From the NCBI GenBank assembly GCA_013697635.1, contig JACCWM010000148.1, positions 1 to 64,000 of the forward strand: 64,000 bases of DNA. Reading direction: 5' to 3'. Origin of the DNA: Lujinxingiaceae bacterium. GTDB taxonomy: Bacteria; Myxococcota_A; Bradymonadia; Bradymonadales; Bradymonadaceae. Under the pieces are notes generated by a model. That model did no database searches and had not been told where the DNA came from. It saw nothing but the letters and a program-made list of their open reading frames with translations. Each line of letters opens with the position of its first letter. The first letter of the stretch is position 1. Both the position numbers and the translations under genes were made by a program. Positions 13,090 to 48,096 of the stretch are shown here, one piece after another.

Positions 13090-14613
13090 TCAGGTTGCCG
13101 TCTCGCGGGTGCGACCGGGCGCATCGATCACCTGGCGCACTGTCGTCAACAGCGTGGCCGTGTTGTAGGGCTTTGCGAGCCATTTATCGACCGCGCTCGA
13201 GGTTGCACCGCGGGGATTAAAGCCGCTCATCGCGATGACCTTGACGCCGGGGTCAAGCCTTCGCAACGCATGGATCAGGGCGTGGCCGTCCATATCGGGC
13301 ATCATGATATCGGTGATCACGACGGCGATCTCGCTGCCTCGGATCGCAAAGAGGGTGACGGCCTCGATGCCATCATTGGCCGTGATCACTTCGTATCCGA
13401 AGGTCTCGAGCGTCTTTCGGCAAATCGCGCGAATGGGGGCTTCGTCGTCGACGACGAGCACCAACTCGCCCTGGCCGCGAGGAAGCTCATCGATGACGGC
13501 CTCGGGCAAAATTCCCGCCGCTCTGGGGCGCGCGGGCAAGAAGATTTTGAAGGTCGTGCCGCAATTGAGGGCGCTTTGCACGGTGATAAAGCCGCCGTGG
13601 CCCTTGACGATGGCCTGCACCGTGGCAAGGCCGAGGCCACTGCTCGCTGGCTTGGTCGAGAAGAAGCGCTCATAGATGCGCGCAAAATCGGCGGGGTTGA
13701 TACCCGAGCCGGTATCGGTCACCGTGAGCACCACATGGGGGCCTGGCACGGTCGGTCCCATCATCGAGGCGTCGTGCTCGTCGAGCACGATATGGCCGAC
13801 GTCGACTGAGAGCTTGCCGCCTGAAGTCATGGCGTCGCGCGCGTTGATGCACAGGTTCATAAGCACTTGGTGGAGCTGGGTGAAGTCGCCCACCACATCC
13901 CAGGACTCCTCCGGGCTGGTCATGGTGAAGTGCACGTTTTTGGGGAAGGTGTCCTGGACGATCTTCTGTACGGCGCGCACGACCTCGACGAGCTGGACGT
14001 CCATCTTGTGGCCATCGGCGCCGCGACCAAACGAGAGGATTTGTTGAACAAGTTCGGCGCCGCGCTGGGTACAGGCCTCGATCGTCTCCAAGACCTCCAG
14101 ATCTTCGTGGTTGCTGGCTCGCTCTTTGAGCAGGCGCACCGAGAGGTGGATCGGAGTCAAGATGTTGTTGAGATCGTGGACGACGCCCCCGGCCAGAGTG
14201 CCGATGCTCTCGACACGTTGCGAGCGCAAGACCTGTCCTTCGAGCTTTTTTCGCTCGGTAACGTCGGTGTCGCAGATCAAGATTGCCTGGGCTTGGCCGC
14301 TCGCATCGGCCAGCAGCTTCCACTGGCTCTCGACGCTGAGAAAGCCGCCGCGCATGGCCACCGGCGAGAGCGGGCCGCTCCATTGACCGCTCTCGAGCAC
14401 CTGAGCGTAGGCTTGTTGAAGGCTGGCCGGCTCGAGGTAGATGAGCTCATCGAGGCTTTGGCCTATCGCCTCGGCCGGGCTCCAGCCGTAGATGCGCTCA
14501 GCAAACGGGTTCCAGTGCGTGACGAGGCGATTCAGGTCGCAGACCAAGATGGCAACCTCGCTGACTTCGAAGAGGTCCTCAAACCGGGGGCTAAATGGCA
14601 GGATGGTGTTCAT
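13090..14613 (-). CDS. PAS hybrid histidine kinase with C-terminal receiver
   Basis: A 507-residue soluble hybrid kinase. One PAS domain (about residues 10-120; HWNPFAERIYGWSPAEAIG) precedes a dimerisation box with His146 (GGVVHDLNNIL). The ATPase domain has NLCINARDAM, DTGSGI and SSGLGLATV. A receiver (from about residue 378) has VVDDE and an acceptor Asp in VVITDIMMPDMDG. I use the ATG at 14613; a TTG one codon earlier also opens the frame. A possible Shine-Dalgarno AGAGG precedes it. It is divergent from kaiC, and its PAS closely matches the third PAS of the kinase in the kai operon, so the two are paralogues. Confidence 0.92.
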   Translation of the reverse strand: MNTILPFSPRFEDLFEVSEVAILVCDLNRLVTHWNPFAERIYGWSPAEAIGQSLDELIYLEPASLQQAYAQVLESGQWSGPLSPVAMRGGFLSVESQWKLLADASGQAQAILICDTDVTERKKLEGQVLRSQRVESIGTLAGGVVHDLNNILTPIHLSVRLLKERASNHEDLEVLETIEACTQRGAELVQQILSFGRGADGHKMDVQLVEVVRAVQKIVQDTFPKNVHFTMTSPEESWDVVGDFTQLHQVLMNLCINARDAMTSGGKLSVDVGHIVLDEHDASMMGPTVPGPHVVLTVTDTGSGINPADFARIYERFFSTKPASSGLGLATVQAIVKGHGGFITVQSALNCGTTFKIFLPARPRAAGILPEAVIDELPRGQGELVLVVDDEAPIRAICRKTLETFGYEVITANDGIEAVTLFAIRGSEIAVVITDIMMPDMDGHALIHALRRLDPGVKVIAMSGFNPRGATSSAVDKWLAKPYNTATLLTTVRQVIDAPGRTRETAT

Positions 14614-14637
14614 CAATGCCTCTTGCTGACGTTGCCA

Positions 14638-14663
14638 AACCGTCTCTACCTGAGGAGACGGTT
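14638..14663 (-). promoter_or_regulatory. Hairpin in the 5' leader of the PAS hybrid kinase
   Basis: A 9-bp perfect inverted repeat (AACCGTCTC / GAGACGGTT) with an 8-base loop lies 25 bp upstream of the kinase ATG on its leader strand. It could be an operator or an mRNA structure near the ribosome binding site. Function is inferred from position only. Confidence 0.35.
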
Positions 14664-14840
14664 GCAGTCATGGCCTTCGTGTACCAATCTGAAACATTCG
14701 GCATACGATCAACCCTAGACGCTACGCTCACAGTGTGCAAGTATGTTGCTATTCCAGTGTAACACAATCTAGTTTGGCGGATGATATTGATTTTTAAATG
14801 AAATTTCCATTGCCGATCGTCTTGTTCGAGCGGGTCTCGA

Positions 14841-14870
14841 CTTGAATCAATCGGCCTTGAATCAATCGGC
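14841..14870. repeat. Perfect 15-bp tandem repeat upstream of kaiC, candidate operator
   Basis: Two exact abutting copies of CTTGAATCAATCGGC end 28 bp before the kaiC start, in a locally AT-richer divergent intergenic region (14614-14898) shared with the PAS hybrid kinase. Each copy contains the imperfect palindrome TTGAATCAA. A 15-bp period is about 1.4 helix turns. Binding of a regulator is inferred, not shown. Confidence 0.5.
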
Positions 14871-14898
14871 GTCTTCATTTTTCAGTTGTAGGCAGTAG

Positions 14899-16632
14899 AT
14901 GTCCTTCCTTACGGCAAGCGCACTCTCCTCAGTTTCTGTTCGCTCATCGACCGGTATCGTGGGTCTCGACGAAATCATGCGCGGCGGCCTGCCACGGGGC
15001 CGAACGACCTTGCTCGAAGGTGGCGCCGGCTGCGGCAAGACGGTGCTCGCCTTGCAGACCCTGGTGCACAGCGCGCGTGAGCTGAGCGAGCCCGGGATCT
15101 TCGTTGCCTTCGAGGAGAGCTCCACGCGCATTTTGGCCAATGCCGCAAGCTTTGGATGGGATCTGGCGTCGTTGCAGAGCAAGAATCTGTTTTTTCTCGA
15201 TGCCCAGCCCAGCCCCGAGTTGTTGGTCTCCGGAGACTTCGATCTCTCCGGCATGCTCGCCGGCCTTGATGCCCGCGTGAAGAGTTTGGGCGCAAAGCGC
15301 ATCGTCTTTGACGCACTCGACATCATCTTGAGTCTGCTGTCCGACGATCTCGTCAGACGCCGGGAGGTCAATCGAATCCACGAGTGGCTGCTTGCTCGTG
15401 AGCTGACGGCGATGATCACCTTGAAGTCGAGTGACGGCCTGAAGGTGGCTCGCCAGCTGGATTTTCTGCAGTTCATGGTCGATTGCGCAATCGTGCTCAA
15501 ATCCGACGTCGTTCAGGGTACCTCGCAGCGAAGCCTGCGTGTGATCAAATGCCGCGGCTCGTCTTTTGACGAGAATGAAGCCCCCTTTGTCATCGGAGCG
15601 CAGGGCATCGAGGTCGCCTCGACCTTCAGTCACTCGAATTATGAGATTGTGGTCAGCGACGAGCGCGTCTCCTCCGGCGTGGAGCGCTTGGATTCGATGC
15701 TCGGCGGCGGCTATTTTCGCGGCGCGAGCGTGCTGATCACGGGCTCACCCGGAACGGCCAAGACCACCCTCAGCGGTGCTTTTGCGCAGGCCGCCTGCGA
15801 GCGTGGTGAGCGAACGCTCTTTGTCACTTTCGACTCGCACGGCGACGAGATTGTACGCAACCTGGCCTCGGTCGACATTCAGCTCAAGCCGTTTGTCGGC
15901 AATTTGCTGCAGATGCATTCGGCGCGCGCCATCGGAGGCAACGCCGAGATTCATTTGATGCGCATCAAACACCTTGCCGAGGAATTCGGTGCGCGTTGCC
16001 TGATCGTTGATCCGATCTCGGCGCTGGCAAAATCCGGCAACGCCGATCTCTCACACAGCGTCATCGAGCGGCTCGTCGACTGGTCCAAGAAGAAGGGGAT
16101 CACGCTGATATGCACGAGCCTGGTCGATCACACTTTGTTCCAAGGCGAGGGCAGCCCGGTTCAGATCTCCACGATTGCCGACACCTGGATCAAGCTCAAT
16201 TACGTCGTTCATGCCGGAGAGCGCAACCGCGGGCTCTCGATTATTAAATCGCGCGGCACCGAGCACTCCAACCAGGTGCGCGAGCTCGTACTCAGCAAGG
16301 ACGGCATCAGCTTGACCGATGTCTATCACGCAGGCGGAGAGGTGCTCATGGGCTCGATGCGCTTTGAGAAGGAGCGAGCCAACATGCTCGCGCAGCGCCG
16401 CCGCGAAGCAGACAACGAACAAGTGCGCATCGAGATCGATGCTGCCGTGCTCGAACTTGAGATGAAGCTGCTCGTCATTCAACGTGAGATCGCGCTCAAG
16501 CGTGCCGAAAAGCTAAATCGCGCGCTGTACGCCGAGGCTCAGGCCGAGGATGAGGCGTTTGCCGACGCGATGCTCTGGCAGCGCCGCGGAGGCAATGATG
16601 AATCGGGCGGCAAGGACGATAATGAACCATGA
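14899..16632 (+). CDS. kaiC: KaiC-type double RecA-fold ATPase
   Basis: A 577-residue protein with two tandem KaiC domains. CI (about 15-250) has Walker A GGAGCGKT (41-48) and the paired Glu in FEES (72-73). CII (about 255-500) has Walker A GSPGTAKT (282-289). In CII the Glu pair reads FDS (311-313). Ser424-Thr425 in VQISTIADTW align with the phosphorylated Ser431/Thr432 of Synechococcus KaiC. A charged coiled-coil tail follows from about 505. In cyanobacteria KaiC is the clock autokinase/ATPase; outside them it is less understood. Its 3' end overlaps the kaiB-like gene by 11 bp. No kaiA is seen nearby. I accept the gene symbol at family level only. Confidence 0.9.
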   Translation: MSFLTASALSSVSVRSSTGIVGLDEIMRGGLPRGRTTLLEGGAGCGKTVLALQTLVHSARELSEPGIFVAFEESSTRILANAASFGWDLASLQSKNLFFLDAQPSPELLVSGDFDLSGMLAGLDARVKSLGAKRIVFDALDIILSLLSDDLVRRREVNRIHEWLLARELTAMITLKSSDGLKVARQLDFLQFMVDCAIVLKSDVVQGTSQRSLRVIKCRGSSFDENEAPFVIGAQGIEVASTFSHSNYEIVVSDERVSSGVERLDSMLGGGYFRGASVLITGSPGTAKTTLSGAFAQAACERGERTLFVTFDSHGDEIVRNLASVDIQLKPFVGNLLQMHSARAIGGNAEIHLMRIKHLAEEFGARCLIVDPISALAKSGNADLSHSVIERLVDWSKKKGITLICTSLVDHTLFQGEGSPVQISTIADTWIKLNYVVHAGERNRGLSIIKSRGTEHSNQVRELVLSKDGISLTDVYHAGGEVLMGSMRFEKERANMLAQRRREADNEQVRIEIDAAVLELEMKLLVIQREIALKRAEKLNRALYAEAQAEDEAFADAMLWQRRGGNDESGGKDDNEP

Positions 16633-16909
16633 CTTCGTGCGTCTACGCCTTTATGTGGCTGGCGATTCGCCGAACTCACAACAGGCGCGCAAAAATCTAC
16701 AGGCGTTTTGCGAAAAACACCTCGTGGGCTGCCATGTGCTCGAAATCGTCGACGTCCTTTTATCGCTCGAGCAAGCTCTCGAGGACGGCATCTTGATGAC
16801 GCCGGCGCTGGTGATCTTGTCGGCGTCGCCGTTGCGTACGGTGATCGGCACTCTGAGCGATCCGCAGGTCGTGTTGAATGCTTTGCAGCTCGCAGGCATT
16901 GAGCGATGA
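16622..16909 (+). CDS. kaiB: KaiB-like thioredoxin-fold protein
   Basis: A 95-residue protein matching KaiB in length and pattern: RLRLYVAGDSPNSQQARKNL at the N-terminus, then LEIVDVLLSLEQA, ILMTPALVIL and a late TVIGTLSDPQVVLNAL. KaiB is a fold-switching partner that binds the KaiC CI ring. AAGGA ends 5 bp before the chosen ATG; ATGs at 16595 and 16598 are possible but lack this site. The gene overlaps kaiC by 11 bp and the next kinase gene by 4 bp (ATGA), so the three are coupled. Confidence 0.88.
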   Translation: MNHDFVRLRLYVAGDSPNSQQARKNLQAFCEKHLVGCHVLEIVDVLLSLEQALEDGILMTPALVILSASPLRTVIGTLSDPQVVLNALQLAGIER

Positions 16910-19383
16910 GCAGCGACGAGACCGCTTTATTACGTGGCCATCCGGACGAGCTTGCTGCCTTGATCCAGCGTCTCCAGGAGACCGAGCAGCGCATCGCTGA
17001 GATCACCGCAGGTCAGGTCGATGCCGTCTTGACCAGCTCGGGAAAACCTCACCTGTTGCAAAGCGCGCAGCAGAGCCTACACAGGCGCGAGGTGGAGCAG
17101 CGCGAGCTGGCCTCGGTGCAGACCGCAGTGCTCAATGCGATGCCCGCCCACATCGCGCTGCTCGATTCACAAGCGAACATCGTGGCGGTCAACGAGGCCT
17201 GGCGCCGCTTTGCGCAGGGCAACGGGTTTGCGGGCGATGCGTCAGGACTTGGGGACAACTACCTCGATGCTTGCCGCGATTCACCCGACGTCATGCAAGG
17301 CATTCGCGACGTGCTCAGCGGCGAGCGGCCACGCTTTGCCATGGAGTATCCCTGCCATGCGCCGGGCGAAAAGCGCTGGTTTCGTCTGATTACCACGCCT
17401 GTCGTCGAAGCCGATCGCCAGGGCGCGCTGGTGATGCACGTTGACATCACCGACTTGCACCAGGCCTTGCGCCGGCTGGTGCGCGGCGAGAAGCGCATCG
17501 CGCGAAGCGAGGAGCGCTTTCGCCTGGTCGCTCGCGCCTCGAGCGACGCGATCTGGGACTGGGACGTCAAGCGCGATCGCTTATGGCGCTGTGGTGGCCT
17601 GGGTGACCGATCGGGGGGCGGGGGCGACGAGCTCGAGTCCAGCCTCGCCGACTGGGTCGATAGAGTCCACCCCGAGGACAAGGCGCGACTGACAGCCGGC
17701 CTCGAGCGCACCGTGCACGGCAACGCGCTCACGTGGAAGGACGAGTATCGCTTCATCTTGACCACGGGGCACGAGGTCCGCCTCAAATGGCGTGGCTACG
17801 TGATGCGTGATGCCAACGGCGTGGCCTACCGCGTGGTGGGCGGCACCACCGATGTCACCCGCGAGCGCGCCGCCGATCAACGACTTGCCGAGCAGGCCGC
17901 GCTGCTCGATGAGGCCCGCGACGCGATCCTTGTTCGCAAGCTCGACCATACCGTCGCCTTTTGGAACCGAAGCGCCGAGCGCCTCTACGGCTGGACTGCC
18001 AGCGAGGCCATGGGCCGCTCGGTTGCCGTCCTGCTCTACGACGAGCCCACGGCATTTTTAAGTGCAACCGAGCAAGTTCTGGCCCATGGCGAGTGGAGCG
18101 GTGAGCTGAGCCAGATCTGCAAAGATGGCTCGAAAGTCGTGGTCGAAGGCCGCTGGACGCTCGTGTGTGACGACAACGGCATTCCTGACCGCATTTTGGT
18201 GATCAACACCGACATGACCGAAAAGAAGGCATTGCTGGCTCAATTTCTGCGCGCTCAGCGTATGGAGGGCATCGGTGCCCTGGCTGGCGGCATCGCCCAC
18301 GATCTCAACAACGTGCTCGCACCGATCTTGCTCAGCATCGGTCTGCTGCGCCAGCAGGCAAGCGATGACAAGACCCTCGAGACGTTGAGCGATATTGAGG
18401 CCGCCGCCCAGCGCGGCGCCGACATGGTGCGCCAGATCCTCACCTACGCTCGGGGCAGTGAGCGCGTCTATGGGGCAATCGACGTGGATCGCTCGGTCGT
18501 CGAGATCGAAAAGATCATTCGTGATAGCTTCCCCAAGAACATCGTCTTCGTGCACGAGTCTGGCTCCGATATCTGGCAGATCGATGGCGACTCGACCGAG
18601 CTCCATCAGGTGCTGCTCAATCTGTGCGTCAACGCGCGCGATGCCATGCCTCAGGGTGGCATGCTGCGTATCACGTTGGAGAACTTTTATATCGATGCCA
18701 ACTACGCTGCGATGATCGGCTCGCTCACCCAGGGGCGCCATGTGCGCATCTCGGTAACCGATACGGGCATGGGCATGCCGGCCAAGGTCATGCGCCAGAT
18801 ATTTGACCCCTTCTACACGACCAAGGCCGTTGGCAGCGGTACGGGCCTTGGTCTGGCCACGGTGGAGTCGATCGTGCGCAGTCATGCTGGAACGATCAGC
18901 GTCGAGAGCAAGCCGGGCGCCGGGACGACCTTCAATGTCTTCTTGCCGGCCAGTGCGAGCGCGCGCGTCGAGCCCGACATGGCCGAAGAGCGCGCGCTTG
19001 CGCGAGGATGTGATGAGCTCATTCTTGTCGTCGACGACGAGAGCGCAATTCGCTCGGTGACCCAACAGACGCTCGAAGCGTTTGGCTACAGGGTGATCAC
19101 GGCGGAAAATGGCGCCGATGCCATCGCGATCTTCGCTTTGCGCAAAGACGAGATCGCCGTGGTGCTCACGGACATGACCATGCCGATCATGGATGGCCCA
19201 ACGACCATCCGCGTACTCAGGCGCATGGACCCGGAGCTGATCGTCATTGCGACCAGTGGGTCGGCCAAAGCCGGTGAGCGAGTCAACGTCGCCGGCCTGG
19301 GTGCAGACCACTTTTTGGCTAAACCGTTTACGACGCAGGCGCTGTTGGACATGCTTGAGCTGATTCTGGCCAAGCGGCGCTGA
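16906..19383 (+). CDS. Three-PAS hybrid histidine kinase of the kai operon
   Basis: An 825-residue soluble hybrid kinase. The N-terminal helix (LIQRLQETEQRIAEITAGQ, then VDAVL) is a type often seen ahead of PAS sensors. PAS domains lie at about 75-185, 203-320 and 330-440. The phospho-acceptor box has His465 (GGIAHDLNNVL). The ATPase domain has NLCVNARDAM, DTGMGM and GTGLGLATV. The receiver (about 705-822) has VVDDE and an Asp in VVLTDMTMPIMDG. Its start overlaps the kaiB-like stop by 4 bp, making it the likely output or input kinase of the Kai proteins. Light or redox cofactor binding by the PAS domains cannot be judged. Confidence 0.93.
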   Translation: MSSDETALLRGHPDELAALIQRLQETEQRIAEITAGQVDAVLTSSGKPHLLQSAQQSLHRREVEQRELASVQTAVLNAMPAHIALLDSQANIVAVNEAWRRFAQGNGFAGDASGLGDNYLDACRDSPDVMQGIRDVLSGERPRFAMEYPCHAPGEKRWFRLITTPVVEADRQGALVMHVDITDLHQALRRLVRGEKRIARSEERFRLVARASSDAIWDWDVKRDRLWRCGGLGDRSGGGGDELESSLADWVDRVHPEDKARLTAGLERTVHGNALTWKDEYRFILTTGHEVRLKWRGYVMRDANGVAYRVVGGTTDVTRERAADQRLAEQAALLDEARDAILVRKLDHTVAFWNRSAERLYGWTASEAMGRSVAVLLYDEPTAFLSATEQVLAHGEWSGELSQICKDGSKVVVEGRWTLVCDDNGIPDRILVINTDMTEKKALLAQFLRAQRMEGIGALAGGIAHDLNNVLAPILLSIGLLRQQASDDKTLETLSDIEAAAQRGADMVRQILTYARGSERVYGAIDVDRSVVEIEKIIRDSFPKNIVFVHESGSDIWQIDGDSTELHQVLLNLCVNARDAMPQGGMLRITLENFYIDANYAAMIGSLTQGRHVRISVTDTGMGMPAKVMRQIFDPFYTTKAVGSGTGLGLATVESIVRSHAGTISVESKPGAGTTFNVFLPASASARVEPDMAEERALARGCDELILVVDDESAIRSVTQQTLEAFGYRVITAENGADAIAIFALRKDEIAVVLTDMTMPIMDGPTTIRVLRRMDPELIVIATSGSAKAGERVNVAGLGADHFLAKPFTTQALLDMLELILAKRR

Positions 19384-21408: not shown

Positions 21409-21476
21409 CGGAAATGACTGCTCATGATGTGGGCGAGGTGACCTGTTTGACCAGGCCAGAAAAAATATCACAGCTT

Positions 21477-21502
21477 GAGCACAGTGGAAACCACTTGTGC
21501 TC
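21477..21502. promoter_or_regulatory. Imperfect inverted repeat, candidate operator
   Basis: GAGCACAGTGG and CCACTTGTGCTC form an 11-bp inverted repeat with a 3-base centre and one extra T. It sits in the divergent region (21409-21681) between the membrane SpeE-like gene and the two-PAS hybrid kinase. The rest of that 273-bp region shows no clear promoter. Confidence 0.35.
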
Positions 21503-21681
21503 TACATAGCGGCCGAGTTCAAACGCTGGTTGAGCGGGGCGGTGGAGGCGGTGGAACGTGCAGCACTTCCCACGTGTTTCATTATTTGCTCGAGATCTCG
21601 AATGTGCGAGAATGCTACAGTCCGCCAACAAGTGCTCGAATTGCTCACCACCAACATATCCTTATCAACGTTGACGATCGC

Positions 21682-23568
21682 ATGAGCGATGATGCAACAA
21701 AGCCATTGGTTCAGGGGGCAAAGGAGGCAGAGCTTATCGAGCTTCGCCGGGTCGAGCAGCGCCTTGCCAGGGCGCTGGACGCCATCTCCGATGCCTTCAT
21801 CTGCCTCGATCATGGCTGGCGCCTGAGACAGGTCAACCGCGCCGCCGAGCAAATGCTTCAAAGCCCCATGAGCGCGCTGCTTGGCCAGGTACTCTGGGAT
21901 GTTTTGCCCGTGGTGCTTGGCACGAACTTTGAGCGCCAGTGCCGGCGCGCGCTCGAGAGTGGCGAGCAGGCAAGCTTCGAAGCACAGTTTGTGCCGCTGG
22001 GATTGTGGGTGAACGCCCAACTTTGTCCCACCGAGGAGGGGCTCGAGATCTACCTTCGCGACATGAGCGCCCAGCGCGAAGCCGAGCGCAAGCGCCACGA
22101 GAGCGACGAGCGCTTTCGAATCGTCGCCAGCGCGACCAGCGACGCGATTTGGGATTGGGATTTGAAAAACGACGTGTTGTGGAGGGCCAAGGGCAAGGAG
22201 GATGAGTCGGAAGTCAGCCTGAGCGCCTGGACCCAGAACGTGCACCCAGACGACAAAGATCGCTTCTGGAGCGGCCTTCGCAGCGCGATTGCGGGCAACG
22301 GAACGCATTGGAGCGACGAGTACCGCTACAGGGATTTGGCGGGGGACAACTACGTGCTCGTAAGCCGCGGTTTCATCATGCGCGATGCTCAAGGCGTCGC
22401 CTATCGCGTGCTTGGCGGCACCACCGACGTGACCCGCGAGCGCGAGGCCGACCGCCGGCTTGCCGAGCAGGCCGCCCTGCTCCTGCAGGCCGAGCGCATG
22501 GAGGGTATCGGCACTCTGGCCGGCGGCATCGCCCACGATCTCAACAACATTTTGGCCCCGATCTTGCTCAGCATGGAGTTGTTGCGCATGCAGGACCATG
22601 ACGAGGTGACGCGTGAGACACTTGCCAGTGTCGAGGCTGCCGCGCATCGCGGAGCCGACATGGTGCGCCAGATCCTCACTTATGCCCGTGGCACGGAGCG
22701 CGTGAGCGGCGCGGTCGACGTGCGCCAGGCAATCCTCGAGATCGAAAAGGTCTTGCGCGACAGTCTGCCCAAAAACATCGCGCTGACCTGCGCCATCGAA
22801 GCTGAAATCTGGGCGGTGTGCTGCGATGCGACCCAGCTTCATCGGGTGTTGCTCAATCTGAGCGTCAACGCGCGCGATGCCATGGCTGACGGCGGCACGT
22901 TGCATATCAAGGCTGAGAATATGTGCGTGGCGTCCAAACGCCATGTCCAGATTTCGGTCAGCGACTCAGGCCTGGGCATGACCCCAAAAGTCGTGCGCCA
23001 GATCTTCGATCCGTTCTTCACCACCAAAGAGATTGGCAGCGGTACGGGGCTGGGCCTGTCGACGGTGGACTCGATCGTACGCAGCCACGGCGGCAGGATC
23101 AACGTCGACAGCACGCCCGGAGCGGGCACGACGTTCAAGGTCTTGATGCCGGCCCTTGACACTGAGGTGCCCAAGCGTCACCGCACAAAATCGAAAGTCG
23201 AGCATGGCCGTGGTGAGCTCGTCCTGCTCGTCGATGATGATGAATCGATCCGCCTGGTCACCACCCAGATCCTCGAGGTCTACAACTACCGCGTGGTCAG
23301 CGCCGTGCACGGGGCCGATGCACTTGAGGTCTTCGCGCGGCGCGGGGCCGAGATCGCTGTGGTTTTAACCGATATGATGATGCCGGTCATGGACGGCCCG
23401 GCGGCCATTCGAGCGCTCAAAGCCCTTCGCCCCGAGCTGGCGATCATCGCCACCAGCGGCTTGAGTACGGCGGAGCATGCTTTTGCCGCCGGCGCTGACG
23501 AATTTCTGCCCAAGCCTTTCAACCCGCCGACGCTGCTCGCCATGCTGCACCGTATCCTCAATCCGTAG
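21682..23568 (+). CDS. Two-PAS hybrid histidine kinase with receiver
   Basis: A 628-residue hybrid kinase read from MSDDATKPL; an upstream frame to 21475 is Gly/Cys-rich leader without domain character. PAS domains are at about 28-130 and 143-255. The acceptor is His285 (GGIAHDLNNIL), the ATPase domain has NLSVNARDAM and GTGLGLSTV, and the C-terminal receiver has VVLTDMMMPVMDG. Blocks such as SDAIWDWD and GGTTDVTRE are shared almost verbatim with the kai-operon kinase, from which it differs by lacking the third PAS. Divergent from one SpeE-like membrane gene and followed 78 bp later by another. Confidence 0.92.
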   Translation: MSDDATKPLVQGAKEAELIELRRVEQRLARALDAISDAFICLDHGWRLRQVNRAAEQMLQSPMSALLGQVLWDVLPVVLGTNFERQCRRALESGEQASFEAQFVPLGLWVNAQLCPTEEGLEIYLRDMSAQREAERKRHESDERFRIVASATSDAIWDWDLKNDVLWRAKGKEDESEVSLSAWTQNVHPDDKDRFWSGLRSAIAGNGTHWSDEYRYRDLAGDNYVLVSRGFIMRDAQGVAYRVLGGTTDVTREREADRRLAEQAALLLQAERMEGIGTLAGGIAHDLNNILAPILLSMELLRMQDHDEVTRETLASVEAAAHRGADMVRQILTYARGTERVSGAVDVRQAILEIEKVLRDSLPKNIALTCAIEAEIWAVCCDATQLHRVLLNLSVNARDAMADGGTLHIKAENMCVASKRHVQISVSDSGLGMTPKVVRQIFDPFFTTKEIGSGTGLGLSTVDSIVRSHGGRINVDSTPGAGTTFKVLMPALDTEVPKRHRTKSKVEHGRGELVLLVDDDESIRLVTTQILEVYNYRVVSAVHGADALEVFARRGAEIAVVLTDMMMPVMDGPAAIRALKALRPELAIIATSGLSTAEHAFAAGADEFLPKPFNPPTLLAMLHRILNP

Positions 23569-29710: not shown

Positions 29711-31897
29711 ATGTCTCTTTGTAAGTCTTTGTGTTTTTTGTTGGTTTTGCTCTTGATTGCCGGTTGCACACAGTCCAGCGTGCATTTGAACGACGAAGCA
29801 CCTGTCGACGACTTTGAGCGTATCGCCGTCGAGCTTTGGATTGCGCACGACGCGATCGAGATCCTCGCCGTCCACGCGCGCGTGCCGCCCTCACGCCCCG
29901 CTGCCAACGGCCCGGCCGAGCTTCGCTACGAAGTCCGAGACGCGCGCGCAGACCTCGTTGAAGCGGGCACCTTTGCTGACCCACGCGTCGTGCACAGTGA
30001 GTTCGATCGCGCGGGCAACGTCTCGCCGGTCGTCGAGACGGCCGGCGCCGGCTCGACCTGGCTCTTCTTGCCCGACATCGATGGCACGGTAAAGATCGAC
30101 GACGCGAGCACAACGCTTGGCATCCTCGATCTGGTGCGCGATCTGCAAACGCACACCGTGCCGCTTTTGCAGCCCGACGACATCCTCGGTGCGCCGGTCA
30201 AACTGCTCGACAACGGCGCCTCGGCCCAGCGCGCCGACATTCTCTTTGTGCCCGACGGCTTCACCGAAGCCCAGATGGAGCGCTTTCATGAGGACGTCAA
30301 CGAGATACTCGAAGGCCTCAAGCGCGATCCAGACTACGCCGCCGTCTGGCGAGGCTTCAACTTCTGGCGCCAGGATGTGCGCTCGCGAGACGCGGGCATC
30401 AACGAGAGCGGCCAGGTGCGCAACACGGCGTTCGATGTCGGCCCGCTGGGCGACAGCGGCCGCTGCCACTGGCCATCGAATGACGGCGCGCGCGCGATCC
30501 GTGATCTGGGCGCCACGGTCAATGCCGACTACGTCGTGGTGATCATCAACACGGCCCTGCACTCGGGCTGCGCGACGTCCTCGATGACCACAGTGAGCAT
30601 CACCCCGAACACCGCCCACGTGCTGGCCCACGAGCTTGGCCACGGCCTCTTCAATCTGGGCGACGAGTACGCCTACGCCGGCGTCGCCGCGGGCAGCTGC
30701 GCCAGCGAGCGGCCGAACATCGCCACGAGCGCCGCGCGCGCGAGCCTTCCCTGGCGCGATCTGCTCACGACCAACACCTTGCCGACGCCCGATCGCGCCG
30801 AGTTTCACCGTTTCGTGGGCGCTTTTGAGGGCGCGGGCTACTGTGAGACGGGCCGCTTTCGCCCGCACCACGACTGCATGATGCGCTCGCTGGGCCAGCC
30901 CTTTTGCCCGGTCTGCCGCCACGCCCGCGACCGCTACTTTGCCCCGCTCGGCGTCGAGCCCGAGCAACCCCAGATTCCCGCCAACAACAAGCACTGCGAT
31001 CACGTCAGCCGCGTGGCCGGCTCCAACCGCTTTGCCACGGCCGCAAACCTCTCCCGCGAGCTCTTTGCCGATGGCGCTCAGGTCGTCGTGCTCGCCAACG
31101 GCTCGGACATCTCGCCGGACGCCCTTGCGGCCGGCCCGCTTGCCTTCAAGTTCAAGGCGCCCCTGCTCCTGACCGCCAGGGACGGCCTGCCCATCCACAC
31201 CGAGGACGAGATCCACCGCCTCGGCGCAACGCGCGTGATCATCGTGGGCGGCGAGAGCGTCGTCGGCCCCGGCGTCGCTCGCCAGCTCCAAGACGCGCGC
31301 ATCACCGTCGAGCGCATCTTTGGCGCCAACCGCTTCGAAACGGCGGCCCTGATCGCACGCCGGCTCACCTCCGACAAGCCCTCCACGCTTGCCTTCATCG
31401 CCTCGGGCGAGAACACGAGCCTGGTCGACGCTTTAGCCGCCGGCGGCCCCGCGGCCGCCCTGGGCGCACCGATCTTGCTCACAAGCCGCGACGCGCTGCC
31501 GGCTGCGACCGCCCAGGCCATTCGCGATCTTGGCATCACCCGCACGATCGTCGTCGGCGGCAGCGGAGCGGTCTCCGAGGCCGTCTTCGCCCAGCTCCCT
31601 GGCGCCACACGCCTCTCCGGGCCCGACCGCTACCAGACCGCGGTCGCCATCGCCACCCACGCCATGGAACAAGACGTGGTCGAGCGCTCCACCATGTTCC
31701 TGGCCCAGGGCATCCGCCTGCCCGATGCCCTCGCTGCTGCCGCCGCTGGTCGCATCTTGCTGCTCACCCAGCCCACCACGCTCAACACCCATGCCGCCGG
31801 CTTTCTCGAGAAGCACGCGATCAACGTCACGATCATGGGCGGTGAGGCGGCCGTTGGCGACGCCGTCGAGCGCGCCGTGTGCACGGCTGTTCAATAA
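29711..31897 (+). CDS. M64-type metallopeptidase lipoprotein with cell-wall-binding-2 repeats
   Basis: A 728-residue predicted lipoprotein (lipobox LLIAGC). The catalytic part (about 170-420) carries HVLAHELGHGLFNLGDEY, with zinc ligands His307 and His311 and the downstream Asp-Glu typical of IgA peptidase M64. The C-terminal third holds three repeats of the cell-wall-binding-2 type, marked by VAGSNRFATAANLS, IFGANRFETAALIA and LSGPDRYQTAVAIA, each with a VGG-type strand. Those repeats anchor proteins in Gram-positive walls and are unexpected on a Gram-negative lipoprotein. The target protein is unknown. Confidence 0.88.
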   Translation: MSLCKSLCFLLVLLLIAGCTQSSVHLNDEAPVDDFERIAVELWIAHDAIEILAVHARVPPSRPAANGPAELRYEVRDARADLVEAGTFADPRVVHSEFDRAGNVSPVVETAGAGSTWLFLPDIDGTVKIDDASTTLGILDLVRDLQTHTVPLLQPDDILGAPVKLLDNGASAQRADILFVPDGFTEAQMERFHEDVNEILEGLKRDPDYAAVWRGFNFWRQDVRSRDAGINESGQVRNTAFDVGPLGDSGRCHWPSNDGARAIRDLGATVNADYVVVIINTALHSGCATSSMTTVSITPNTAHVLAHELGHGLFNLGDEYAYAGVAAGSCASERPNIATSAARASLPWRDLLTTNTLPTPDRAEFHRFVGAFEGAGYCETGRFRPHHDCMMRSLGQPFCPVCRHARDRYFAPLGVEPEQPQIPANNKHCDHVSRVAGSNRFATAANLSRELFADGAQVVVLANGSDISPDALAAGPLAFKFKAPLLLTARDGLPIHTEDEIHRLGATRVIIVGGESVVGPGVARQLQDARITVERIFGANRFETAALIARRLTSDKPSTLAFIASGENTSLVDALAAGGPAAALGAPILLTSRDALPAATAQAIRDLGITRTIVVGGSGAVSEAVFAQLPGATRLSGPDRYQTAVAIATHAMEQDVVERSTMFLAQGIRLPDALAAAAAGRILLLTQPTTLNTHAAGFLEKHAINVTIMGGEAAVGDAVERAVCTAVQ

Positions 31898-39659: not shown

Positions 39660-41081
39660 ATGGCCAAGACACGCTCGATCTATGTTTGTCAGAACTGCGC
39701 TCACGAGTCGGCGCGCTGGTTGGGCCGCTGCCCGGGCTGCGAGGACTGGAACAGCTTTGTCGAAGAGCTTCGCGGCGGCGCCGAGGCGCCGTCCCACCAG
39801 AGCAGCGCTCGCGCCGGCTTTGGCGCCGAGGGCGGCGGCGAGGCGATGCGCATGGGTGACGTCAGCGGCTCGGCCGAGGACCGGATCTTGAGCGGCATCT
39901 CCGAGCTCGATCGCGTGCTCGGCGGCGGCTTCGTGCACGGCGGTGTTGTCTTGCTCGGCGGCGATCCCGGCATCGGCAAGTCCACCCTGTCCTTGCAGGT
40001 CGCCGGCCACTTCGCCTCGGCCGGAAACGAGGTGCTCTACATCTCCGGCGAGGAGAGCCTCAAGCAGCTCAAGATGCGCGCCGAGCGCCTCAACGTCGAC
40101 GCCAACGACGTGCTCGTGCTCTGCGAGACCAGCCTCGAGCGTGTGGAAAAACGCCTTCGCGAGCGCCCACCGCGGCTGCTGATCCTCGACTCGATCCAGA
40201 CCCTTGCCACCGACGCCCTGAGCTCGTCTCCGGGCAGCGTCGCCCAGCTTCGCGAGGTCACCGCCGCGCTCACCCAGCTCGCCAAGGGCCTGGGCGTGCC
40301 CACCGTGCTCGTGGGCCACGTCACCAAGGACGGCAACATCGCCGGCCCCAAGGTGCTCGAGCACATGGTCGACACCGTGCTCTACTTCGAGGGCCAGTCG
40401 GGCCTGAGCTATCGCATCCTTCGCGCCGTCAAGAATCGCTACGGCTCGACCAACGAGATCGGCGTCTTCGAGATGCGCGGCGACGGTCTGCACGAGGTTT
40501 TGAATCCCTCGGAGATGTTTTTGGCCGAGCGGCCTCAGGGAGCGCCAGGCAGCGTCGTCGTGCCCGTCGTCGAGGGCTCGCGCCCACTGCTCGTCGAGCT
40601 GCAGGCGCTGATCAGTCCCACGAGCTACGGCCCGCCGCGCATCACGGCCGTGGGCGTCGAACACAACCGCGTGCTGTTGTTGCTCAACATCATCGAGAAG
40701 CGCACTGGCCTCAAGGTCGCCGGCCAGGATGTGTTCGTCAACGTCGCCGGCGGCGTGCGTGTGGCCGAGCCGGCCGTCGACCTGGGTATTGTCGCGGCCG
40801 TGCTCTCGAGCTATCTCGAGCGACCCGTGCCCCAGGGCGCGGTCTGCTTCGGTGAGGTCGGGCTAACCGGCGAGGTGCGTGCCGTCTCGATGGCGCCCGC
40901 GCGCCTGGCCGAGGCCCAGAAACTCGGCTTCACACGTGCCGCCTTGCCGCGTGGCAACGCCGCGGCGGTCGAAGAACACTTCGGCGCCCCCAAATCGGCC
41001 GGTCTGGTCGACTTTCACCTCGACCACGTGCGCACGCTGGCCGATGCCATCCGGGCCATCTTCGGCAAGGATGTGCTCTGA
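39660..41081 (+). CDS. radA: DNA repair protein RadA
   Basis: RadA is a RecA-like ATPase that helps process recombination intermediates. All marks are present in 473 residues: a zinc finger (CQNCAHESARWLGRCPGC), Walker A GGDPGIGKST, the RadA-specific KNRYG, and a Lon-protease-like C-terminal domain (VNVAGGVRVAEPAVDLGIVA). Confidence 0.97.
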   Translation: MAKTRSIYVCQNCAHESARWLGRCPGCEDWNSFVEELRGGAEAPSHQSSARAGFGAEGGGEAMRMGDVSGSAEDRILSGISELDRVLGGGFVHGGVVLLGGDPGIGKSTLSLQVAGHFASAGNEVLYISGEESLKQLKMRAERLNVDANDVLVLCETSLERVEKRLRERPPRLLILDSIQTLATDALSSSPGSVAQLREVTAALTQLAKGLGVPTVLVGHVTKDGNIAGPKVLEHMVDTVLYFEGQSGLSYRILRAVKNRYGSTNEIGVFEMRGDGLHEVLNPSEMFLAERPQGAPGSVVVPVVEGSRPLLVELQALISPTSYGPPRITAVGVEHNRVLLLLNIIEKRTGLKVAGQDVFVNVAGGVRVAEPAVDLGIVAAVLSSYLERPVPQGAVCFGEVGLTGEVRAVSMAPARLAEAQKLGFTRAALPRGNAAAVEEHFGAPKSAGLVDFHLDHVRTLADAIRAIFGKDVL

Positions 41082-45687: not shown

Positions 45688-47886
45688 CTACGGTTTCTTG
45701 GTCGAGTCTTCGCGGGCCTGCTCGACATTGACCGCGCGGCGCAGCACGTCGAAGGCCTCCTCGCTGGCCGGTGAGAAGCCCGTGATACGTTGATTGTCGC
45801 CCAGACGATCGACGCCCAGGTGCTCTCGTGGATTGAAATCCAACACGGCCTTTTGCACGCGTTCGCGATCGACCGGATCAACGTTGCTTCCGGCTGCGAC
45901 GATGTCCTGAGGCACGTGGCCGGTGATCGCGAGCTGGCGCATCTGGCCGACGCGGATTCCGAATTTGTCGGCCGACAAAAAGGCCCCAGAGTAGGTCGCC
46001 GTGGCGTCGCACTTGCCGCTCAAGAGATCGCGCATGCCTTGAAAGTGGTCGCCGCTCCAATGGATTTCCCCCACGAAGGTCTCCGGATCAAAGCCACCAC
46101 GGCGGATGAATTCGCGTGGCAAGAAGTAGCCTGTCGTCGATTGCTCGTCGACAAAGCAAAAGCGCTTGCCTTCGAGATCGGCCAAGGTCGCGATCTTGGC
46201 ACTCATCGAGACGAGCAGCAGCGCATCACTCGAGGTGCTCTCGTCAAACTCCTTGATCGCGAGCAGCGTGATGGCCGGTTCAACGGCCTTGGCCCGCACA
46301 TACAAAAGTGGCGGCATCATGGCAAAGGCCACCTCGCCTGCGTGCAGCATGCGGGCCAGATCGCCGTAGTCCTGGGCGACCACCATGGGCATGGGCCGCC
46401 CTGTCGTGATCTCCAGGTAGCGATGCAGCGGACGCACTTCCTGAACGAGTACGTTAACGTCGACCGTTGGCGCCCAGCCGATCGGCAACGGATCACCGAT
46501 CAAGATGGCCGAGTGATCGTGCTCGGCCTCGTGGGCCGCCGTGCGCGGCCACAGCAGGATCGCCAGCGTCAGCGCAAAGAGCACGGTCATGCCGCTTAGC
46601 CCGAAGCGCACGACGCTGCGTCTGTGGTCTTGCCAGATGCCGCTGACGCCGCCTTGCTGCCAAGAATGGCTCAGTGAGACCGAGCTCGTCGGTGAGAGCC
46701 GAAGCTCGCTTGTGGTCGAGCGCGCGTCGATCTCGCCGGGCTTGGGAAAGTCCACCGCATCGAGTCTATGCTCGCTGCCCGCCGCCGCAGGCGGTATCGA
46801 GGCGCTCCTGGAATGCTCGCCAATTGGCCGATCGACCACGGTTCGGATCGACTCCTCGTTGTGTGTGCTGTCGGCCGAATTGGAGTTCGAGCCGGTCATG
46901 TGAAGAAGGCGACGGCGCTCCTCGGCGGTGAGCTTTCGCTCCAAAGCATGTTGCAGCGTCGTGCGCCGCTCATTCAAATAATCGCCGGCGACCTGGCCCA
47001 CGAAGCCAGCGACCTGGTCGTCGCTGAGCACGAGGTTGGACTTGCCGGCGGCGGCGACCAGGGCCTGGCGCATCTGCTCGGCCGTCTCATAGCGGTGACG
47101 CGCGTCGCCGGCCAATGCCTTCATGATCACGCGCTCGAGCGCGGCAGGAACCGTCGGGTCGAGCGAGCTTGGCGCAGGCACGTCGCCACGAATGATCGAC
47201 TGCATCATCTCGAGCTCGGTGCGCCGCTTGAACAAGCGCTGGCCCGTGCAAAGCTCCCAGAGCACGATGCCCAGCGCGAAGATGTCCGAGCGCCGATCCA
47301 GTGGCTGGTGCAAACACTGCTCGGGCGAGAGGTAGGCGAACTTGCCCTTGAGGCTACCCGAATAGGTCGCCTCGACGCCCTCGGTGGCCTTGGCCACACC
47401 GAAGTCGAGCAATTTGACGTTGCCCTCGGTGGTGCACATCAAGTTGTGCGGCGAGATGTCGCGATGCACCAGGCCGAGCAGACTGCCCTCGAGATCACGC
47501 AGCTCGTGGGCCGCGTGCAGGCCCCGACAGGACTGCTCGACGATGCTCGCCGAGACGCTGTGCGGAAAAATGATCGAGCGCTGCTCGGCGAGCAGTTGCA
47601 ACTCGCGAAGCGTGCTCCCGTTGATGTACTCCATGGCGATATGGTAGGAGGTCTCCTCTTGGCCCAGATCGTAGATTTGAACCACGTTGGGGTGGGAGAG
47701 GCCGGCGACAAAGCGCGCCTCGCGCGTGAACATCTCCACAAACGAGGGCTGGTCGGCCAGATGCGGCAAGATGCGCTTGATCACGACGAGGCGTTCCAGG
47801 CCCGCAATTCCCCGCTCACGGGCAAGGAAAAGCTCAGCCATTCCTCCCGTTGCCAGCCGCGTGACTAACTCATAGCGGCCGATCAT
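45688..47886 (-). CDS. Ser/Thr kinase with extracytoplasmic PhnD-like binding domain
   Basis: A 732-residue protein. The kinase (1-280) has LATGGMAELF, Lys37, catalytic HRDISPHN with Asp143, and DFG Asp161, so it looks active although HRDIS replaces HRDLK. A Ser/Thr-rich linker and one membrane helix (about 427-448) follow. Residues about 465-710 resemble PhnD-type periplasmic binding proteins (AFAMMPPLLYVRA, LADLEGKRFCFVDEQSTTGY, GKCDATATYSG). A small oxyanion or phosphonate ligand is plausible. I use the ATG at 47886; a GTG at 47940 adds 18 residues with atypical codons. Confidence 0.9.
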   Translation of the reverse strand: MIGRYELVTRLATGGMAELFLARERGIAGLERLVVIKRILPHLADQPSFVEMFTREARFVAGLSHPNVVQIYDLGQEETSYHIAMEYINGSTLRELQLLAEQRSIIFPHSVSASIVEQSCRGLHAAHELRDLEGSLLGLVHRDISPHNLMCTTEGNVKLLDFGVAKATEGVEATYSGSLKGKFAYLSPEQCLHQPLDRRSDIFALGIVLWELCTGQRLFKRRTELEMMQSIIRGDVPAPSSLDPTVPAALERVIMKALAGDARHRYETAEQMRQALVAAAGKSNLVLSDDQVAGFVGQVAGDYLNERRTTLQHALERKLTAEERRRLLHMTGSNSNSADSTHNEESIRTVVDRPIGEHSRSASIPPAAAGSEHRLDAVDFPKPGEIDARSTTSELRLSPTSSVSLSHSWQQGGVSGIWQDHRRSVVRFGLSGMTVLFALTLAILLWPRTAAHEAEHDHSAILIGDPLPIGWAPTVDVNVLVQEVRPLHRYLEITTGRPMPMVVAQDYGDLARMLHAGEVAFAMMPPLLYVRAKAVEPAITLLAIKEFDESTSSDALLLVSMSAKIATLADLEGKRFCFVDEQSTTGYFLPREFIRRGGFDPETFVGEIHWSGDHFQGMRDLLSGKCDATATYSGAFLSADKFGIRVGQMRQLAITGHVPQDIVAAGSNVDPVDRERVQKAVLDFNPREHLGVDRLGDNQRITGFSPASEEAFDVLRRAVNVEQAREDSTKKP

Positions 47887-48096
47887 TACCGGTGATCGTG
47901 CAGGTGATTCGCTCAAAGCGCCCTCGATAAGTTGCCCCACATACTAACTGGTGCATTGTACGCGCATTCCTCGAATCTACATCCTAAGAAGTGCGTCCCT
48001 ACCATCTGGCGCGATTTACCTCGTGCAGGGCACGGCGCATCGCGTTATCTTTCTCTCAGCGCCGTGGGTCCAGAAAACACTGCCACAAGAGTAGCC

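Follow-up and report, generated by a model that had tools for sequence, protein, structure and literature searches.

A KaiA-less kaiC-kaiB-kinase operon in a Lujinxingiaceae bacterium, with a changed second active site in KaiC and a kaiCB-linked N-terminal module on the kinase

The kai operon and its relation to known systems

We have analysed a stretch of 64,000 nucleotides (hereafter, the window) from contig JACCWM010000148.1 of a Lujinxingiaceae bacterium (assembly GCA_013697635.1), in which a three-gene kai operon is located. The following genes, all on the + strand, constitute the operon: kaiC (14899..16632), encoding a double-domain KaiC of 577 amino acids (aa) with a C-terminal helical extension; kaiB (16622..16909), encoding 95 aa from an ATG at 16622, a longer open frame from 16550 being due to an upstream in-frame start; and a gene for a hybrid histidine kinase (16906..19383) of 825 aa, composed of an N-terminal module, three PAS domains, HisKA, HATPase_c and a receiver. 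The open frames overlap by 11 base pairs (bp) between kaiC and kaiB and by 4 bp between kaiB and the kinase gene. An earlier note on this DNA had described these overlaps, the double-domain KaiC, the 95-aa KaiB-like protein and the three-PAS hybrid kinase, and both the open frames and the Pfam domains agree with that description. A gap of 282 bp (14617..14898) separates kaiC from a divergently oriented kinase gene; the operon promoter is likely to lie in this gap, and a consensus promoter search upstream of kaiC gave no site on the + strand.

KaiC was matched by the Pfam profile PF06745 in two stretches (E 4.3e-90) and by the NCBIfam equivalog of "circadian clock protein KaiC" (476 bits against a cut-off of 408), and its best match in PDB was the KaiC of Rhodobacter sphaeroides (KaiC-RS, 8dba), aligned over residues 15-567. 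The small protein falls within KaiB by profile search, as had been supposed (PF07689, E 1.6e-15, 57 bits against a curated cut-off of 27); NCBIfam also recognised it, yet below the equivalog cut-offs (61 vs 110 bits), and its best structure match was KaiB-RS (8fwj_M, E 6.6e-12). Exactly one KaiB was found in the whole genome, which is 99.45% complete. The absence of kaiA, previously noted for the window, holds for this whole genome (no match of PF07688, with a positive Synechococcus elongatus control), and no photosynthetic reaction-centre gene was matched there by PF00124, in agreement with the non-photosynthetic character assumed earlier. A gene after kaiB could be read in 76 relatives, and 74 of them have the order kaiC-kaiB-partner, so that the arrangement, as judged from gene order, is more than chance.

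The arrangement is not new. Operons of kaiC-kaiB-kinase without kaiA are present in R. sphaeroides 2.4.1 and Rhodopseudomonas palustris (PMC4794148), and KaiBC of the former acts as an hourglass built on a coiled-coil dodecamer (PMC10076222). According to the main text of a 2011 survey (PMC3164672), kaiC-kaiB of non-cyanobacteria is almost always followed by a kinase gene or a GGDEF/EAL gene. By gene order and layout, the present operon is a KaiA-less KaiBC of the type known from R. sphaeroides: kaiA is lacking, kaiB adjoins kaiC, the kinase gene directly follows kaiB, phosphorylatable residues (S424-T425) occupy the phosphosite positions, and the C-terminal extension of KaiC is present as a predicted long helix (residues 482-561; 16342..16581, +), which the AlphaFold2 model and the alignment to 8dba point to as the counterpart of the KaiC-RS coiled coil. 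The Glu pairs that this type has in both the first (CI) and second (CII) domains are found in CI (FEE) but not in CII (FDS).

The operon of Rhodobacter (Cereibacter) sphaeroides 2.4.1 on plasmid pB (PDB 8DBA, 8FWI, 8FWJ) shares with ours the gene order, the lack of kaiA, a double-domain KaiC with the helical extension, and KaiB; its kinase, too, starts with an N-terminal segment related to that of the window kinase. It differs in having CII FEE and S-S phosphosites in KaiC-RS, against FDS and S-T in the window, and an HWE-type kinase in place of a HisKA hybrid; the two KaiCs are about 33% identical. The kaiC-kaiB-PAS/histidine kinase operon of R. palustris, a proto-circadian timer (PMC4794148), likewise has the same layout without kaiA, whereas EE pairs are reported for both domains of its KaiC and TSS for the phosphosites, the window having D-S in CII. 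The window also shows precisely the neighbourhood type of kaiC-context group 1 (non-cyanobacteria) in the above Ramlibacter survey, whose main text mentions neither the CII change nor the shared N-terminal module of the partners; the RtaNt module presented in its main text belongs to pairs of kaiC and histidine kinase genes without kaiB.

KaiB and KaiC are homologous to those of the KaiABC-SasA/CikA system of S. elongatus, and a histidine kinase is again the probable output. The presence of both proteins is what speaks for a true circadian oscillator of the KaiABC kind, but we regard such an oscillator as very improbable here, because the genome has no kaiA, the CII Glu pair is lost and the kinase carries no KaiB-like domain of the SasA type. 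A KaiB-like, SasA-like N-terminus on the kinase was searched for with PF07689 and rejected: no match was found, the sole KaiB of the genome being the kaiB product, and the modelled N-terminus consists of a helix-hairpin-helix followed by PAS.

The second active site of KaiC

In CI, the catalytic Glu pair is intact (E72/E73; 15112..15117, +). In CII, on the same strand, D312-S313 (15832..15837) occupies the place of the catalytic pair E318/E319 of S. elongatus, and the motif accordingly reads FDS, as compared with YEE (E318/E319) in S. elongatus and FEE (E302/E303) in KaiC-RS. The CII Walker A, GSPGTAKT (15742..15765), has Ala where other KaiB-linked KaiCs have Gly. E317 (15847..15849) lies five residues past the start of the Asp-Ser pair, and S424-T425 (16168..16173) are the counterparts of the phosphosites S431/T432.

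For comparison, 80 close relatives were collected from a scan of genome contigs by their similarity to the window KaiC; counts out of 82 include the window itself and L188, a repeat of L076. These relatives belong to Beta-, Gamma- and Alphaproteobacteria, Verrucomicrobia and others. The CII pair is changed in all 80, with D at the first position except in one and S/T at the second except in one, while CI reads FEE in 81 of 81 readable sequences. The Ala of the CII Walker A (GxxGTAKT) is present in 82/82, against Gly in 38/38 other KaiB-linked KaiCs, and position 317 is Glu in 82/82, against Gln in 35/37 of the others. S424 is kept in 81/82; the second phosphosite is non-phosphorylatable (A/K/M/E) in 21/82 and in no KaiC of the EE type. 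As far as the sequences tell, a KaiC branch with a rebuilt second active site is widespread, and a KaiC clade with Asp-Ser in CII was not described in the literature searched. Decay into a dead CII was considered as a simple explanation and is weakened, because A287, D312, S/T313 and E317 have been retained together across the clade.

Relatives with the intermediate motif FDE (L019, L186 and L197) branch basal to the FDS clade in the FastTree phylogeny, and since they sit at the clade base, the motif looks to have changed from FEE through FDE to FDS. An IQ-TREE phylogeny made after removal of six signature and phosphosite columns agrees (support by SH-like approximate likelihood ratio test/ultrafast bootstrap: 89/94 for FDE plus FDS, 91/85 for FDS). 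Since the 80 relatives had been selected for their resemblance to the window, these counts call for caution: among 397 genomes drawn evenly from the phylum to which one relative (G096) belongs, the sole FDS-type KaiC was that of G096 itself, accompanied by one FDE type.

In S. elongatus, E318 activates the phosphosites and E319 coordinates Mg, and the E318D mutant is arrhythmic (PMC2777353). For this reason the clock or timer supposed in the earlier note stands in part: an hourglass is known for KaiBC of R. sphaeroides, but a phosphorylation clock fits poorly with CII glutamates that have been replaced. A phosphorylation hourglass exactly like that of R. sphaeroides, in which CII would autophosphorylate via Asp312 and/or the relocated Glu317 and track ATP/ADP with the kinase as output, is nevertheless in line with several features. 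CII retains the Walker A Lys/Thr, the Walker B Asp, K457, R459 and S424 and keeps its signature as a set; in the AlphaFold2 model, E317 is predicted within the initial turns of the helix that follows the catalytic strand; and a loss of phosphoryl transfer was stated for E318A only, not for E318D (PMC2777353). We regard this hourglass as unlikely, in view of the rhythm abolished by E318D, the Ser that takes the place of the Mg-coordinating E319 in the window, and the second phosphosite lost in about a quarter of the clade. KaiC-RS with CII disabled (E302Q/E303Q) retains its CI ATPase, which is stimulated about 3-fold by KaiB (PMC10076222), and because of this analogy, a KaiC of the FDS type could still function via CI and KaiB.

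The partner kinase and its N-terminal module

The kinase begins with a module of about 60 aa (16927..17112, +), for which the model gives a helix (13-33), a beta-hairpin (40-50) and a helix (52-78). According to Pfam, PAS_4 follows directly (residues 76-185; 17131..17460), and then a second PAS (PAS_3, residues 241-312; 17626..17841), a third PAS (PAS/PAS_9, residues 331-439; 17896..18204), the HisKA plus HATPase_c core (18280..18951) and a C-terminal Response_reg receiver (19021..19356), all on the + strand. The sequence contains the motifs HDLNN and TDMTMPIMDG. Core and receiver have their best NCBIfam match in CckA-type hybrid kinases (NF046020, 319 bits), far under the equivalog cut-off of 1000, and the sensory half differs from that family.

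The module is found on 74 of the 76 partners downstream of kaiB, starting at a median of 15 nucleotides past the kaiB stop, with the consensus EIxxLIxxLHxTxQRLEELTxGEVDxVxDxxGRxFLLxxAQ in the clade. The two partners without a match are L090, on a contig of 3.1 kilobases (kb), and L078, for which the open frame tested is probably not the partner gene. The module belongs to no Pfam or NCBIfam family and was not described in the literature searched. AlphaFold2 predicts helix, hairpin and helix with a predicted local distance difference test score above 90 for most of the module. For module plus PAS, no solved structure was found by sequence search, and the fold search matched only the PAS half (query template modelling score about 0.5).

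When 21 operon-bearing genomes were searched with a profile of the module, one match per genome was obtained, at the operon, in 20 of them (one genome has two, adjacent to each other); in the remaining genome, G010, kaiCB lacks a partner gene and the module is absent. Among 397 genomes from a single phylum, where at most 15 candidates per genome were scored, the sole module match adjoins kaiB. With another profile, derived solely from the operon kinases that accompany the other branch of KaiC (R. sphaeroides type), each of seven genomes gave a single match, immediately after kaiB. We also considered that the segment of this type (GEVDALVV) might be a generic kinase motif and rejected this, because a search of 16 genomes found it at kaiCB operons only. 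Matches on a Microvirga plasmid cover the PAS part only. Strict confinement of the module to kaiCB was rejected in turn by one orphan on a Methylosinus plasmid.

The coupling of the kinase to KaiB that the earlier note had put forward thus gains support, with the kinase as a dedicated output of KaiBC, since the N-terminal module occurs essentially only at kaiCB operons. That the kinase might act independently of KaiBC, its co-transcription being incidental, is suggested by a core close to those of two neighbouring kinases without a kaiCB link and by the orphan copy. We think this improbable, because the module is kaiCB-linked across phyla and persists through at least six swaps of output.

These swaps became evident from 38 partner proteins scanned for domains. 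PAS_4 follows the module in all 38, while the outputs comprise GGDEF (20), EAL (22), HisKA (18) and receiver (20) domains, and at least six output switches are required on the KaiC tree, against about 19 with shuffled labels. The phosphorelay predicted earlier fits the window genome, but the same slot is taken by cyclic di-GMP (c-di-GMP) proteins with GGDEF/EAL in 20-22 of the 38 relatives. Alternation between phosphorelay and c-di-GMP proteins is typical of lifestyle switches, and would also suit a stress or energy regulator with no timing role, in which KaiBC, as an ATPase scaffold, would turn the partner protein on or off in starvation or stress, as suggested for Legionella. A stress role of the Legionella KaiC2-type protein is cited in PMC5520375, and the lack of PF00124 matches gives the window genome no light-harvesting context. 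Sequence alone cannot separate such a regulator from a slow timer, and KaiB fold-switching and the CI ATPase are intrinsically slow in the relatives studied; on balance, we consider a regulator without timing rather doubtful.

Proposed signalling, origin of the operon and local context

We propose, with a probability of roughly 60%, that the operon encodes a KaiA-less KaiBC sensor of energy state or of hourglass type, which would work mainly through CI and KaiB and whose output protein would be docked by the module. KaiC is expected to assemble into the usual double ring, extended by a coiled coil at its C-terminus. In CI, which keeps the ATPase residues, hydrolysis would let fold-switched KaiB bind in the ADP state. 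CII would bind ATP, but slow or absent autophosphorylation is expected from its rebuilt catalytic site, so that the nucleotide state, and not a two-site phosphorylation cycle, would carry the information, CII reporting ATP by its occupancy. The module and PAS_4 of the kinase would dock on KaiB or KaiC and read the complex, and the docked cassette would gate the output of the CckA-like hybrid kinase to a phosphorelay. The genes and their order, the lack of kaiA, the altered CII residues, the linkage of the module to kaiCB and the swapping of outputs are seen in the sequences; the docking, the direction of control, the kinetics (slow timing or ATP/ADP sensing), any rhythm and the target of the relay are inferred from them. 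The constancy of module and PAS_4 while outputs are swapped argues for the proposal, and so do the gene order and KaiC extension in common with R. sphaeroides, the conserved CI FEE and CII signature, the CI ATPase that KaiC-RS retains when CII is disabled, the near-restriction of the module to kaiCB operons, its recovery in the window kinase by the R. sphaeroides-type profile, and its absence from the two neighbouring kinases with similar cores.

Several points weigh against it. Because the clade has strongly conserved its CII signature and gained an invariant carboxylate in E317, CII may be a rebuilt working site that is catalytic in another way and not slow; moreover, S424 is conserved, and the phosphosites of the window are still S-T. 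The cross-match between the two module types is weak: in the window genome, the R. sphaeroides-type profile matched only the window kinase, at E 6.4e-4. The orphan, a degenerate module on plasmid pOB3b1 of Methylosinus trichosporium OB3b (L220, 3970-6261), has no kaiCB within 4.5 kb. The two Hpt matches of the window genome are in large proteins on other contigs, and no interaction, ATPase or rhythm data for proteins of the FDS clade were found in the literature. Concerning the orphan, it sits on a kinase-like open frame, of which PLSDB annotates only the 3' part.

Beyond the known kind of operon, these data add a KaiC subtype with rebuilt CII and a kaiCB-linked module. With a kinase site altered by nature, the clade offers living systems in which phosphorylation and KaiB-driven CI signalling come apart, and the module is a concrete candidate for the long-missing interface between KaiBC and its output outside cyanobacteria. 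As the module occurs on kinases as well as on c-di-GMP enzymes, a single front end may control different lifestyle outputs. The question touched here is how KaiA-less KaiBC signals, whether for timekeeping or not. As a broader and only tentative suggestion, to which we give less than even weight, there may be a widespread Kai lineage in which a D-S-x3-E CII replaces the phosphorylation chemistry and a docking module is carried on interchangeable outputs, the whole being a timer or energy gauge that is modular, works independently of phosphorylation and has spread horizontally among non-photosynthetic bacteria.

With respect to origin, the kai operon was probably acquired horizontally, because the window KaiC is nearer to proteins of other phyla (mostly 53-60% identity) than to that of G010 from its own family (45%), nests within the FDS clade in both the FastTree and IQ-TREE phylogenies, and comes from a phylum in which KaiB is rare (12 of 286 genomes above the cut-off). 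Vertical inheritance shared with G010 was rejected: without the signature columns, too, the window KaiC clusters with sequences of other phyla. In G010, the kaiC-kaiB pair (L019; 10001-11710 and 9721-10098) has the intermediate CII FDE and no partner gene. Two more double-domain KaiCs are present in the window genome (L020 and L021; contigs C114 and C182), each beside a histidine kinase and without kaiB, resembling the kaiC-histidine kinase context of PMC3164672. Elsewhere, KaiB-like genes were found directly before a kinase gene (L184 and L185), with no kaiC in the roughly 10 kb covered.

Around the operon, a divergent hybrid kinase (13090..14616, -) is 46% identical to the operon kinase from the last PAS to the receiver and is without the module and PAS_4 cassette, and a second neighbouring hybrid kinase (21475..23568, +), also without the module, is 53% identical in the core and 56% in the PAS_3 region. 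Three related hybrid histidine kinases with cores 46-53% identical are thus located in and around the operon, the module being only on the middle one, and this suggests local duplication. ARAGORN reported a tRNA-Ala(GGC) at 21712-21799 (-), antisense to the downstream kinase gene and within its open frame; either this is a false positive, or the kinase begins later than 21475.

Other genes in the window include one at 45688-47940 (-), in which a protein kinase domain is fused to a phosphonate-binding periplasmic domain, an uncommon combination, and one at 29711-31897 (+), in which, in a genome presumed to be Gram-negative, cell-wall binding CWB2 repeats accompany an IgA-peptidase-like M64 domain. 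A further match to a KaiC-family profile at 39660-41081 (+) has a zinc ribbon and a RecA-like domain, which fits a RadA/Sms-type DNA repair protein and not a clock gene.

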